In this document: piece by piece, positions 11,853-16,368 of the stretch
Layout: every line of letters begins with the position of its first letter
Numbering within the stretch: the first letter of the stretch is position 1
Position numbers and translations under genes: made by a program
Notes under the pieces: model-generated
Seen by the model: only the letters and a program-made list of their open reading frames with translations
Database searches by the model: none
What the model was told of the DNA's origin: nothing
Assembly: GCF_018279165.1 (NCBI RefSeq)
Contig: NZ_CP047289.1
Span: 1,052,501-1,116,500, forward strand
Reading direction: 5' to 3'
Length of the DNA: 64,000 nucleotides
DNA from: Falsirhodobacter algicola
GTDB lineage: Bacteria > Pseudomonadota > Alphaproteobacteria > Rhodobacterales > Rhodobacteraceae

Positions 11853-12665
11853 TCAGACGGCCTCGAACTCGACGCCGCGCCGCAGAAACGCGGTCGCGTG
11901 CGAAGAGACGCTGTCCGGATTGCCCGTCGTCAGATAGCGGCTGCGTTGCCCGCTGCCAAGGAACTCCGGGCGCCGGGCAAGGTAATCCTCCAGCGCGGCG
12001 GCCACGAGGTCGGGCTGGGACAGCACCGTCACCCCGGGGCCCAGCGCCGTGCGGAACACCGCTTCCATCATCGGATAATGCGTGCAGCCGAGGATGGCGG
12101 CATCGGGCTTCGGCATCCGGCGCAGCAGCGCCTCCACATGGCTTTTGACCAGCGCCTCGGCCAGAATGGAATCGCCCGCCTCGATCGCATCGACGACGCC
12201 GCCGCAGGGCTGCGCCTCCACGTCGACGCCGATGGCGCGGAAGGCGAGTTCACGCTGAAAGGCGCGGCTGGCGACGGTGGCCGGGGTCGCGAACAGCGCG
12301 ACATGCTTCACCCCCACCTCGCGCGGGGGGGAGTTGTCGCCCCATTGCCGTTCGGTCAGCGCCTCGATCAGCGGCACGAACACGCCGAGGACGCGCTTGT
12401 CCTGCGGAATCCACGTCTCCTGCATACGTTTCAGCGCGGCGGCCGATGCGGTGTTGCAGGCAAGGATCACCAGATCGCATCCCTCGTCCCACAAGCGTTC
12501 GACCGCGCGGGTCGTCAGATCGAAGATGTCGTCGGCGTCGCGCACCCCGTAAGGCGCATGGGCGTTGTCGCCGAGATAGACGAAGGGCACGTCCGGCAGA
12601 CGCTGCTGCAGGGCGGACAGGACGGTCAGCCCGCCCAGCCCCGAATCGAAGATGCCAACCGCCAT
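11853..12665 (-). CDS. murI: Glutamate racemase
   Basis: Makes D-glutamate for peptidoglycan. The 270-residue protein has the paired catalytic cysteines Cys70 (ACNTAS) and Cys194 (GCTHYP) and the N-terminal DSGLGG motif (7-12). ATG 12665 is chosen because GCAGGAGG stands about 5 nt upstream; an ATG five codons earlier (12680) lacks that spacing. First gene of the murI-argC-ccmE unit and divergent from the LysR gene. Confidence 0.95.
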
Positions 12666-12731: not shown

Positions 12732-12761
12732 TTTGCAAGTCAGCCATGCAAAGACTAGATG
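12732..12761 (+). promoter_or_regulatory. Promoter of the LysR gene with overlapping inverted repeat (candidate autoregulatory site)
   Basis: -35 TTGCAA (12733-12738), 17-nt spacer, -10 TAGATG (12756-12761), 23 nt before the LysR start. A perfect inverted repeat TTTGCA-N9-TGCAAA (12732-12752) covers the -35 and spacer, contains a T-N11-A core as in LysR-type operators, and includes CAGCCATGCA (12741-12750), which recurs at 13702-13711 downstream of the gene. The position would suit autorepression. Based on pattern only. Confidence 0.5.
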
Positions 12762-12783
12762 ATCCCCCGGGGGCTTAAGGATC

Positions 12784-13683
12784 ATGATGGACTGGGACAA
12801 ACTTCGCATTTTTCACGCTGTCGCAGATGCGGGCAGCCTGACGCATGCCGGCGACACGCTGCACCTGTCGCAATCGGCCGTCAGCCGGCAGATTCGCGCG
12901 CTTGAAGAAAGCCTGAACGTCACGCTGTTCCACCGGCATGCGCGGGGCCTGATCCTGACCGAACAGGGCGAACTGCTGTTCGACGCCACCAGCGCCATGG
13001 CCAAACGCCTCGACGCCGCCGCCGCGCGCATCCGCGACAGCGAGGACGAGGTGTTCGGCGAACTGCGCGTCACCTCCACCATCGGGCTGGGGACGATGTG
13101 GCTCGCGCCGCGGCTGACCCGGCTCTATCAGAAATACCCAGCGCTGAAGATCGACCTGATGCTGGAGGAGCGGGTTCTGGACCTGCCCATGCGCGAGGCC
13201 GATGTCGCCATCCGCATGAAGGAGCCGAGCCAGGCCGACCTGATCCGCAAGCGGCTGATGACGATCCGCATGCAGCTCTATGCCTCGCCCGACTATCTGG
13301 AGAAGCACGGCACCCCGTTGAACATGGCCGATTTCAACCAGCACCGTCTGATCTGCCAACATGCCGGAACGCCGCAGGTCAGCGCCGGCGCCTCGCTGGT
13401 GGCGGAGTTGATGAGCCACGACATCCCCTCCACCCTGACGGTGAACAATTATTTCGGCGTCATGCAGGCGGTCCTGAACCATCTGGGGATCGGCGTTCTG
13501 CCGAACTACCTCGCCGAGGAGTTTCCGCATCTGGTGCGCGTGCTGCCCGACGTGTCCTCGAACGACGTGCCGGTCTTCCTCGCCTATCCGGAAGAACTGC
13601 GCCATTCCAAGCGTGTCGCGGCCTTCCGGGATTTCATCACCGAAGAGATCATCACCTACCGCAAGAAGTACCAGAACAGCTGA
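12784..13683 (+). CDS. LysR-family regulator resembling LsrB/VtlR of Rhizobiales
   Basis: A 299-residue LysR-type regulator: winged helix at about 4-63 ([30 protein letters not shown]), linker helix, then a periplasmic-binding-like effector domain. The N-terminus and phrases such as [15 protein letters not shown] and the PDYL.KHGTP region resemble, from memory, LsrB/VtlR regulators of Sinorhizobium, Agrobacterium and Brucella, one of which activates an AbcR sRNA gene. Identity to that group needs an alignment. Divergent from murI. The 3' flank carries a palindrome, promoter and sRNA-like unit, suggesting its target. Start could be ATG 12784 or 12787. Confidence 0.85.
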
Positions 13684-13695
13684 TATGCGCCTGCC

Positions 13696-13710
13696 GCATG
13701 GCAGCCATGC
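13696..13710. promoter_or_regulatory. Perfect palindrome upstream of the sRNA-like unit (candidate LysR activation site)
   Basis: GCATGGC-A-GCCATGC, a perfect 7+1+7 palindrome starting 13 nt after the LysR stop. Its right half is part of CAGCCATGCA, identical to a segment inside the LysR promoter repeat (12741-12750). A second copy of GCATGGCAG is at 13743-13751, between the -35 and -10 of the next promoter. Centred about 64 nt upstream of the inferred transcription start, the usual distance for LysR recognition sites. Confidence 0.45.
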
Positions 13711-13731
13711 AGTATTTCGTTCTAAAAGAGC

Positions 13732-13760
13732 TTGCTGATTAAGCATGGCAGGCCTATTTC
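13732..13760 (+). promoter_or_regulatory. Putative promoter of the sRNA-like unit
   Basis: -35 TTGCTG (13732-13737), 17-nt spacer, -10 TATTTC (13755-13760). The spacer holds the direct repeat GCATGGCAG. No credible protein gene starts between here and the terminator at 13819, so the transcript would be a short RNA. Confidence 0.4.
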
Positions 13761-13766
13761 TGCTTT

Positions 13767-13846
13767 CGAAGGCAGCGGTCACATGACTGTTGATTTCATA
13801 CCTCCCTGTTGGACTTAGGCCGGGCTTATGCCCGGCTTTTTTTTCG
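13767..13846 (+). ncRNA. Putative small RNA, about 78 nt, with anti-Shine-Dalgarno loop
   Basis: Inferred from structure, not homology. From the expected start near 13767 the RNA would form a 9-bp stem (13773-13781 with 13784-13792, including two G-U pairs), then an unpaired stretch with CCUCCC (13801-13806), complementary to ribosome-binding sites, then a strong intrinsic terminator: GCCGGGC / GCCCGGC (13819-13825, 13830-13836) and eight T. This stem - single-stranded anti-SD - terminator layout is that of Hfq-dependent alphaproteobacterial sRNAs such as AbcR. It lies between the LysR gene and purL, both on the same strand. Alternative: the terminator merely ends the LysR transcript. Confidence 0.45.
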
Positions 13847-13910
13847 TGCCTTCCCCTGACGCGGTTCCTGCCTTATGACGCTGGGCAAATCCAAGCGAGC
13901 CGAGGAAGCC

Positions 13911-16067
13911 ATGTCCGACCCCGTCATCACGCCCGAGTTGATCGCCGCCCATGGTCTGAAGCCGGACGAATATGACCGTATTCTGGACATCATCGGACGC
14001 GAGCCGACCTTCACCGAGCTCGGCATCTTCAGCGCGATGTGGAACGAGCACTGTTCCTACAAATCCTCCAAACGCTGGCTGCGCACCCTGCCGACCACCG
14101 GCCCGCAGGTGATCTGCGGCCCCGGCGAGAATGCGGGCGTGGTCGATATCGGCGACGGTCAGGCCGTCATCTTCAAGATGGAGAGTCACAACCACCCCTC
14201 CTATATCGAGCCGCATCAGGGCGCGGCGACGGGCGTCGGCGGCATCCTGCGCGATGTCTTCACCATGGGCGCGCGCCCCATCGCGGCGATGAACGCGCTG
14301 TCCTTCGGTGTGCCCACCCATGCCAAGACGCCGCATCTGGTGAAGGGCGTGGTCGAAGGCATCGGCAGCTATGGCAACGCCTTCGGCGTGCCGACCGTCG
14401 GGGGCGAGGTGCGGTTCCACGCCGCCTATAACGGCAACTGCCTCGTGAACGCCTTTGCTGCCGGCCTCGCGGATACGGACAAGATCTTCTACTCTGCGGC
14501 CTCTGGGGTCGGGATGCCGGTCGTCTATCTCGGGGCCAAGACGGGCCGCGACGGCGTGGGCGGCGCGACCATGGCCTCGGCCGAATTCGACGACACGATC
14601 GAGGAGAAGCGCCCGACCGTGCAGGTCGGCGACCCCTTCACCGAAAAGCGTCTGCTCGAAGCCTGCCTCGAGCTGATGGCGTCGGGCGCGGTCATCTCCA
14701 TTCAGGACATGGGCGCGGCGGGGCTTACCTGCTCGGCGGTGGAGATGGGCGACAAGGGCGGCCTTGGCATCCGGCTCGATCTGGAGAACGTGCCGCAGCG
14801 CGAACCGAACATGACCGCCTACGAGATGATGCTCTCGGAAAGCCAAGAGCGGATGCTCATGGTGCTCAAGCCCGAGATGGAGGACGAGGCCCGCGCGATC
14901 TTCGTGAAATGGGATCTCGACTTCGCCATCGTCGGCGAAACCATCCCCGAGGACCGCTTCCTTATCCTGCACAACGGTGCGGTGAAGGCAGATCTACCGC
15001 TGTCGAAGCTGTCCTCCTCGGCCCCCGAATATGACCGCCCTTGGACCCCGACGCCCGCCGCCGCCCCGATGAAGCCGGTGCCCGCGATCGACCCGCTGGA
15101 CGGGCTGCGCGCGCTCCTGCGCTCGCCGAGCTATGCGCATAAGGCGTGGGTCTATGAGCAATATGACAGCATGGTCATGGCCGACACGATCCGCGCGCCG
15201 GGCCTTGGCGCCGGGGTGGTCCGCGTGCACGGCACGAACAAGGCGCTGGCCTTCACCAGCGATGTGACGCCGCGCTACGTTAAGGCGAACCCGCTGCAGG
15301 GCGGCCGTCAGGCCGTGGCCGAAGCCTATCGCAACCTGACGGCGGTGGGCGCCAAGCCCCTTGCCACGACCGACAACATGAACTTCGGCAACCCCGAAAA
15401 GCCGGAGATCATGGGCCAGTTCGTCGGCGCGATCCAAGGCATCGGCGAGGCCTGCATCGCCCTCGATATGCCGATCGTGTCGGGCAACGTGTCCCTCTAT
15501 AACGAAACGGACGGGCAAGGCATCCTGCCGACGCCGACCATCGGCGCCGTCGGCATCCTGACGCTGGATCAGATGATCGCCGGTCAGCCGCAGGCGGGCG
15601 ATCTGGCCGTCGTCATCGGTCAGACCACCGGGCATCTGGGCCAGTCGGCCCTTCTGGCCGAGCTTCTGGGCCGCGAGGATGGCGACGCCCCCCATGTCGA
15701 TCTGGAGACGGAGCGCCGGAATGGCGAGTTCCTGCGCGCCCAGCGTACCCGCCTGCGTGCGGCGACCGATCTATCGGATGGCGGGCTCGCGCTCGCGGCC
15801 TTCGAGATGGCGGAGGCCGCCGGCCTTGGCCTGACGCTGACGGCGGGCGATGCGGGCACCCTCTTTGGCGAGGATCAGGCCCGTTACCTCGTGGCCGTGG
15901 CCCCCGAGGCGCTGCCGGATCTGTCCGCAGCCGCCGAGGCGGCGGGCATCTGGCTGGACACGGTCGGCACCTTCGGCGGCGACACGATCCGCCTCGGCGC
16001 GGCACAGGCCCCGCTGACGGAACTCTCCACTCTCTATCGCACGGCCTTCGAAGCCGCGATCGCCTGA
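13911..16067 (+). CDS. purL: Phosphoribosylformylglycinamidine synthase subunit PurL
   Basis: ATP-dependent amidation of FGAR to FGAM in purine synthesis. The 718-residue product is the small PurL type, which needs separate PurS and PurQ (not in the window). The N-terminus carries the conserved [11 protein letters not shown] motif, followed by [13 protein letters not shown] and [10 protein letters not shown], typical of the ATP-binding halves. ATG 13911 is preceded by GAGGAA; a farther in-frame ATG at 13875 has no ribosome site. It stands 65 bp after the sRNA-like terminator and therefore needs its own promoter in that gap. Confidence 0.97.
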
Positions 16068-16125: not shown

Positions 16126-16368
16126 ATGCCGATGGAAGCCCACGACATCGAAGCGCTGATCCGGGAGGCCTTCCCGGACGCCAAGATCACGATCACCGAC
16201 CTTGCCGGCGACGGCAATCATTGGTCGGCCGAAGTGATCGACGAAAGTTTCAAGGGCATGAACCGCGTGCAGCAGCAGCGGGCCGTCTATGCCAGCCTGA
16301 AGGGCAAGATGGACGGCGCGAACGGCGAGCTGCATGCACTCGCACTGACGACGAAGGCGCCCGCCTGA
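16126..16368 (+). CDS. BolA-family protein
   Basis: An 80-residue protein with the BolA/IbaG alpha-beta fold signatures: NHWSAEVIDESFKGM, RVQQQRAVYASL and the C-terminal ELHALAL. The conserved histidine in the last strand is the usual Fe-S ligand shared with a monothiol glutaredoxin. The next gene, 23 bp downstream, is exactly such a glutaredoxin (grxD), so the pair probably forms the BolA-Grx4 iron-sulfur carrier/iron sensor. Small cytosolic protein; no DNA-binding role can be inferred. Confidence 0.9.
   Translation: MPMEAHDIEALIREAFPDAKITITDLAGDGNHWSAEVIDESFKGMNRVQQQRAVYASLKGKMDGANGELHALALTTKAPA

Follow-up and report, generated by a model that had tools for sequence, protein, structure and literature searches.

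The window analysed here is a stretch of 64,000 nucleotides from the genome of Falsirhodobacter algicola (2,779,574 bases; contig NZ_CP047289.1, positions 1,052,501 to 1,116,500 of the forward strand). It carries a gene for a LysR-type regulator and, downstream of it on the same strand, a candidate small RNA (sRNA) with an anti-Shine-Dalgarno (anti-SD) stretch. The features of the locus are as follows.

12784 to 13683, plus strand: lysR gene, 299 amino acids, reciprocal best match of LsrB/VtlR.
13685 to 13710, plus strand: putative LysR operator of the sRNA, a conserved dyad of the pattern ATGC-N7-GCAT-N3-NG-N3-TGC (here ATGC-N7-GCAT-N3-AG-N3-TGC), with the palindrome GCATGGCAGCCATGC inside it at 13696-13710.
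13731 to 13759, plus strand: sRNA promoter, CTTGCT-N17-CTATTT, of alphaproteobacterial type.
13766 to 13846, plus strand: SorY-like sRNA of about 80 nucleotides from an inferred start, with a 5' stem, an unpaired anti-SD stretch and a terminator.
13800 to 13816, plus strand: near-invariant anti-SD seed ACCTCCCTGTTGGACTT, with CCTCCC at 13801-13806.
13817 to 13846, plus strand: intrinsic terminator, a 9-bp stem (13817-13838) and a T run.
12732 to 12752, minus strand: candidate LysR site for autoregulation, in the promoter of lysR, TTTGCA-N9-TGCAAA, reading GCAT-GGC-TG-ACT-T on the minus strand at 12737-12749.
13743 to 13751, plus strand: copy of GCATGGCAG within the promoter spacer, probably incidental and not conserved.
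11853 to 12665, minus strand: probable murI (glutamate racemase), divergent neighbour (TIGR00067, 137.0 bits, slightly under the cut-off of 146.65).
13908 to 16067, plus strand: purL, downstream neighbour (NF002290, 5.6e-287).

The site in the lysR promoter, the palindrome, the sRNA promoter with its spacer motif, CCTCCC and the terminator that an initial annotation had described are all present. The promoter, which it had called sigma-70-like, is present as CTTGCT-N17-CTATTT but is not of the Escherichia coli sigma-70 type (none found) and resembles instead the CTTG type of alphaproteobacteria.

The best match of the LysR protein in the PDB is entry 9HH1 (E 5.2e-74, the next being 2.4e-32), the LsrB of Agrobacterium tumefaciens (PMC11975290). 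When LsrB is searched against the F. algicola genome the window lysR comes first, at 1.5e-74, followed by another LysR at 1.4e-30, with 12 places in total matching at E up to 1e-5. On the basis of this reciprocal best match the protein is the Rhodobacterales orthologue of LsrB/VtlR, the family to which the initial annotation had assigned it. A LysR match at E up to 1e-60 occurs in 135 of 241 genomes of the class, one per genome except for two genomes that have two. VtlR is reportedly, to go by the title of a 2015 paper, highly conserved among alphaproteobacteria. The statement that LsrB is confined to the Rhizobiales, made in the available part of PMC11975290, is not borne out by these sequence matches. 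The positions corresponding to the redox-active C144 and C273 of LsrB are occupied by Val or Ile and by Ala, respectively, in all 32 aligned Rhodobacteraceae proteins; among the other aligned orthologues of the class Cys is found at 144 in nine of 103 and at 273 in one of 103. This rarity indicates that a cysteine switch is not general to LsrB/VtlR proteins. There is no trxB beside the window lysR, the divergent upstream position being taken by the probable murI, and a trxB directly upstream is a trait of the Rhizobiales branch, not of the whole orthologue group.

The RNA at 13764-13846 has a predicted folding energy of -33 kcal/mol (z -3.98). No Rfam family reaches its gathering score here. 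In a wider search of 351 bases (E up to 10) the best matches are SorY, with 58.8 bits (RF02651, E 1.9e-11, over 13769-13845, gathering score 111), and SorX, with 40.6 bits (RF02784, gathering score 46.6). As 58.8 bits is to be set against 111, we term the RNA SorY-like and do not file it as RF02651. The AbcR (alpha-r15) family, for which we take the Rfam library to contain a model (ar15), is missing from the same match list, and an AbcR identity by sequence is rejected on that ground. The AbcR membership suggested by the initial annotation is therefore unsupported, the RNA being SorY-like; the second, loop-borne anti-SD motif is also missing, there being none in the 5' hairpin loop of the window sRNA, where the linker motif alone is present. 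In 30 Rhodobacteraceae sequences 16 of the 17 positions of ACCTCCCTGTTGGACTT are identical and the remaining one is at least 90% conserved, while the 5' part is variable. Single folds of the Rhodobacteraceae sRNAs predict five or more pairs in the 5' part of each of the 33 sequences, with a mean unpaired probability for CCUCCC of 0.69 and a minimum of 0.32. RNAalifold, applied to the sRNA alignment, recovers the terminator and misses the 5' stem, which is poorly aligned, and when flanking bases are included the predicted fold of the window sRNA differs from that of the isolated sequence.

Cereibacter johrii, a close relative of Rhodobacter sphaeroides, carries a full-scoring SorY (115 bits, gathering score 111) between purL and a LysR that is 84% identical to the window LysR. 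In 12 family loci scanned with Rfam a SorY or SorX match occupies the lysR-linked place in every case; the SorY cut-off is passed only by C. johrii, and in one locus (L027) the SorX score exceeds that for SorY. Given these scores, genomic place and the C. johrii example support the name SorY no less than the score does. Two sRNAs described from Paracoccus denitrificans, 'Intergenic 60' (80 nucleotides) and '134' (84 nucleotides), are candidates for the same sRNA.

Is the pairing of lysR and sRNA conserved? The LysR was found in 45 of 61 relatives, including 36 of the 37 family genomes, and 30 loci were taken, all from Rhodobacteraceae. With three more from the class-wide LysR search these form the main set (n=33); six further family genomes were read afterwards. 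The rest-of-class set holds 106 loci, 25 of the 134 other genomes with a LysR being left out (the 23 lowest-scoring and two near-duplicates). A second Rhodobacteraceae set consists of 41 records picked by sRNA pattern and shares at least four loci (L034, L035, L043 and L068) with the main set, so that the two are not independent.

The sRNA core lies downstream of lysR in 33 of 33 main-set loci and in four of the six further genomes (exact in G034, altered in G010, G014 and G023), that is 3' of lysR in 37 of 39 Rhodobacteraceae genomes overall. The feature is conserved beside the lysR of relatives, a point that the initial annotation had put forward as a check. The exact 16-base core is present in 32 of the 37 family genomes, compared with none for a reversed control. 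In the rest-of-class set 69 of 106 loci have CCTCCC and then a T run within 900 bases downstream of lysR, and a few of these (L084, L154 and L180) look unlike the remainder; the stricter core start CCTCCCTG is present in 62. A few of the 37 negative loci show diverged forms of the core when inspected by eye. Taking all 139 loci, CCTCCC with a T run is found downstream of lysR in 102, the controls giving four (upstream), one (downstream, antisense) and three (upstream, antisense). Among 18 class loci submitted to Rfam (E up to 0.1) SorX, SorY or suhB (mmgR) matches lie 3' of lysR in nine, with L092 alone passing a gathering score (SorX, 47.0). AbcR was not matched in 15 further class loci, ten of which have no clear core; the sole sRNA match there is SorX-like, at L159. 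A 5' hairpin carrying ACGTCTCCCAGACGT precedes the core in 32 of the 62 class loci. AbcR1 and AbcR2 of Sinorhizobium meliloti are described as having CUCCUCCC in the 5' loop and UUCCCCUC between the stems (PMC8844928), and by sequence these 32 loci have two anti-SD stretches in that same arrangement.

In the second set 36 of the 41 records have a LysR gene upstream in the same orientation. Three records hold too little DNA, and L057 and L064 are without the gene there; both keep the sRNA and the operator, the latter imperfect in L064. The record of L057 (CP059262.1) is titled as an Exiguobacterium profundum metagenome-assembled genome, although its purL-sRNA locus is Rhodobacteraceae-like with a PurL 82% identical, and it is probably mislabelled. 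Other arrangements were also seen. Tandem core-bearing sRNA units with T runs, some with a dyad of their own, follow lysR in L082, L088 and L103. Diverged multi-seed stretches (CCTCCCC, CCCTCCCA, CTCCCC) lie behind lysR in L160, L167 and L169, and Rfam (E up to 0.1) matches none of them. In L255 (G020:C51) a BolA-like gene, judged by eye and resembling that at 16126 behind purL in the window, is directly 3' of LysR, with sRNA and purL absent between. Seven family genomes (G005:C11, G007:C1, G012:C67, G015:C3:2694343, G016:C15, G021:C5 and G027:C398) have a second exact CCTCCCTGTTGGACTT that is not near lysR and is possibly SorX or a duplicate.

Ahead of the sRNA the minus strand carries the box GCAT-N3-TG-N3-T at 13698-13710. 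This is the LsrB consensus, reported in the abcR1 promoter (PabcR1) at -61 to -49 (PMC8844928); the window operator fits it and lies at about -81 to -56 from the estimated sRNA start. The VtlR motif given in PMC12595884, CAATGCAGCCATGCA, includes the CAGCCATGCA of the initial annotation. The short consensus is not above chance in the window (eight found, 8.22 expected) and the extended operator is rarer there (one found, 0.10 expected; at least one in nine of 100 shuffles), so the weight of the operator comes from its conservation in relatives. Between 60 and 240 bases ahead of the core, a dyad WTGC-N7-GCA(T/C) is present in 23 of 33 Rhodobacteraceae loci (100 shuffles: mean 1.15, maximum 4) and in 46 of the 62 other loci with the core start (shuffles: mean 2.27, maximum 6). 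The strict form, WTGC-N7-GCAT, occurs in 23 of 33 main-set and 32 of 41 second-set Rhodobacteraceae loci. In these overlapping sets most of the loci with the dyad (20 of 23 and 30 of 32) have the CTTG of the -35 element starting 35-36 bp beyond GCAT. The distance from the dyad to the lysR stop, in comparison, ranges from 1 to 201 bp in the 23 main-set loci. The third half-site (GCAT-N3-NG-N3-TGC) is found in 22 of 33 Rhodobacteraceae.

Given the fixed -35 spacing, the variable distance to the lysR stop and the retention in L057 and L064, we assign the element to the sRNA promoter. The palindrome might otherwise be read as a terminator or mRNA-end hairpin, the sRNA then being a product of the 3' untranslated region (UTR) of the lysR mRNA in the manner of SorX. 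GCATGGCAGCCATGC is indeed foldable (6 bp) and directly follows the lysR stop, and SorX, which has the core in common, is described as processed from a 3' UTR. What is conserved, though, is a split dyad tied to the -35 element and not a hairpin tied to the stop, the dyad persists in L057 and L064 where no lysR is adjacent, and SorY is reported to have its own start site (PMC6238624). We hold the 3'-UTR or terminator reading to be very unlikely. It is more improbable still that a different LysR-type protein binds the operator. Other LysR proteins do exist in the genome, as the 12 places matching LsrB attest, but the class-wide linkage of lysR and sRNA, the fit of the operator to the published LsrB/VtlR box and the copy in the lysR promoter within the genus all speak for the adjacent gene product. 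The proposal of a VtlR/LsrB-type LysR beside an anti-SD sRNA in the Rhodobacterales, with a conserved operator, is borne out.

Two further sites are less widely conserved. The operator-type site in lysR's own promoter is present at 12732-12752, but among the 33 Rhodobacteraceae loci only the seven that belong to one genus keep it (the other 26 lack it), and elsewhere in the class two of 105 loci have it. On these counts autoregulation is rejected as a general feature. The GCATGGCAG copy in the promoter spacer is likewise real, at 13743-13751, but not conserved. The window alone has it among the 71 loci listed, with a weaker look-alike in F. deserti, and it is rejected as a second operator.

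The genome has three matches to the strict operator pattern and none to its reversed control; they lie before the window sRNA and before two DUF1127 genes (L192 and L194). The first of these genes, outside the window (about 780-1175 of L192, on G000:C1), heads a CcsR-like array of ten CCTCCTCCC units, with the operator upstream. A strict operator site is absent from two further DUF1127 genes in the same genome. Across the 37 family genomes the strict pattern is matched 105 times, compared with seven for the reversed control. In at least 25 of these matches, from 20 genomes, a DUF1127 domain follows on the same strand at a distance of up to 400 bases, where a rough expectation is 0.02, and 17 matches precede the sRNA core. 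In Brucella, VtlR is reported to control AbcR2 and three DUF1127 proteins (PMC12595884), and in A. tumefaciens abcR1 and atu1667 are controlled, the latter an orthologue of two VtlR-activated Brucella genes (PMC7486931). Judged by operator position, the predicted regulon of sRNA and DUF1127 genes resembles the known VtlR regulon, and this likeness is the strongest independent support, drawn from sequence, for the LsrB/VtlR assignment. The description of a self-contained LysR-sRNA circuit in the initial annotation is too narrow, as two DUF1127 genes located elsewhere carry the same operator in front of them.

A search for targets was less informative. The pattern AACAGGGAGG-N3-12-ATG has no match in the F. 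algicola genome. In 61 family genomes it gives 205 matches compared with 95 for the permuted CAAAGGGAGG, an excess inflated by sites antisense to the sRNA itself (seven of 30 loci flagged, with a few more that are antisense-like to similar RNAs). Pfam identifies four periplasmic binding proteins (L226, L233, L246 and L247) among 18 genes with the pattern. Neither result is used as evidence.

How might the locus work? We consider it probable that the LsrB/VtlR-type LysR activates the adjacent SorY-like anti-SD sRNA, and probably the DUF1127 genes. Orthology by reciprocal search, linkage, the operator, the promoter spacing, the predicted RNA structure and the operator at DUF1127 genes form the basis for this. 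LysR would bind the operator at 13685-13710 and activate the CTTG-type promoter, which would yield an sRNA of about 80 nucleotides. The predicted fold exposes ACCUCCCUGUUGGAC between the 5' stem and the terminator, and this segment would pair with Shine-Dalgarno regions, probably with the help of Hfq. Transport and metabolic mRNAs may be repressed in consequence, as by AbcR1 in the Rhizobiales and by SorY (takP) in R. sphaeroides. LysR probably also controls the two DUF1127 genes, one of which heads the CcsR-like array.

Several observations weigh against this reading. Most of the strict operator matches, 63 of 105, are near neither an sRNA core nor DUF1127. The strict dyad is missing in ten of 33 Rhodobacteraceae loci, and G020 and G035 carry the LysR with no such sRNA beside it. 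The promoter layout differs between Rhodobacteraceae and the rest of the class: in the 62 loci outside the family no CTTG stands 35-36 bp from the dyad, and only ten of them have the third half-site TGC. The window sRNA is under the gathering score for both SorY and SorX, and four of the 12 scanned family loci (L012, L017, L019 and L029) have lysR-linked sRNAs that pass the cut-off of SorX and not that of SorY. PMC7486931 states that S. meliloti LsrB does not control AbcR, in conflict with a later paper in which it does control AbcR1 (PMC8844928). Lastly, SorY and ccaF1-CcsR of R. sphaeroides are described as dependent on RpoHI/RpoHII, with no LysR named in the accounts available in part.

The last point leads to another explanation, that a SorY-type stress RNA is driven by RpoHI/RpoHII alone, the adjacency to lysR being historical and LysR regulating something else. 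SorY transcription in R. sphaeroides is placed under RpoE/RpoHI/RpoHII control (PMC8307010), and the C. johrii promoter, CTTGAA-N17-CTAAAT, is near the RpoH1 consensus CTTGAA-N16-CCTATAT (PMC8844928). This leaves unexplained an operator 35-36 bp from the -35 element, its retention where there is no adjacent lysR and its reuse at DUF1127 genes. In addition, LysR and RpoH inputs may combine; S. meliloti appears to split them, AbcR1 answering to LsrB and AbcR2 to RpoH1 (PMC8844928). We regard control by RpoH factors alone as unlikely, and retain activation by LysR as the preferred explanation.

Comparison with known systems places the locus more precisely. In common with LsrB/VtlR-AbcR1 of S. meliloti and A. 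tumefaciens, as partially consulted in PMC8844928, PMC7486931 and PMC12595884, there is a LysR identified by reciprocal best match, an anti-SD sRNA downstream of its gene and predicted to act at the Shine-Dalgarno sequence, an operator that fits the same box, and DUF1127 genes as further targets (in Brucella; here by operator position). The differences involve the neighbours, murI and purL with no trxB; an sRNA without an AbcR match and with one anti-SD stretch in place of two; an operator estimated, from the inferred start, to lie about 10 bp farther upstream than in PabcR1, where it begins at -61; and the missing redox cysteines C144/C273. With SorY of R. sphaeroides the locus shares core, size and, judging by C. 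johrii, the lysR-purL gap, and SorY too is reported to have its own promoter. The sequence of the 5' stem differs, as does the score (58.8 bits against a gathering score of 111), and accounts of SorY place it under RpoHI/RpoHII and, in the available text, give no LysR input. SorX has ACCUCCCUGUUGGA and the terminator type in common, and lysR-linked sRNAs of some relatives pass its cut-off, whereas the window sRNA has a promoter and an operator of its own. As for ccaF1-CcsR (CIN1), a DUF1127 gene with a CcsR-like array carries the same operator here, although it is situated elsewhere in the genome and has ten CCTCCTCCC units compared with the four CcsR RNAs reported for R. sphaeroides (PMC10253847).

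We lean, with some reserve, towards a single ancestral alphaproteobacterial regulon in which an LsrB/VtlR orthologue controls an adjacent anti-SD sRNA together with DUF1127/CcaF1-CcsR. SorY in the Rhodobacterales and AbcR1 in the Rhizobiales would then derive from the same locus, the Rhodobacterales having lost the loop-borne seed, with a regulator mostly lacking the cysteine switch of Agrobacterium LsrB. No published link of SorY or CcsR to LsrB, or of SorY to AbcR, was found among the open-access papers listed in searches aimed at it, which do not include the original SorY paper. The finding disagrees with PMC11975290, in the part available, on the confinement of LsrB to the Rhizobiales and suggests that the redox cysteines are not general. 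If true, it would join the stress sRNAs of R. sphaeroides (SorY, CcsR and CcaF1), which are credited to RpoH factors, with the rhizobial LsrB/VtlR-AbcR system as one regulon, the predicted operator of which is immediately testable.
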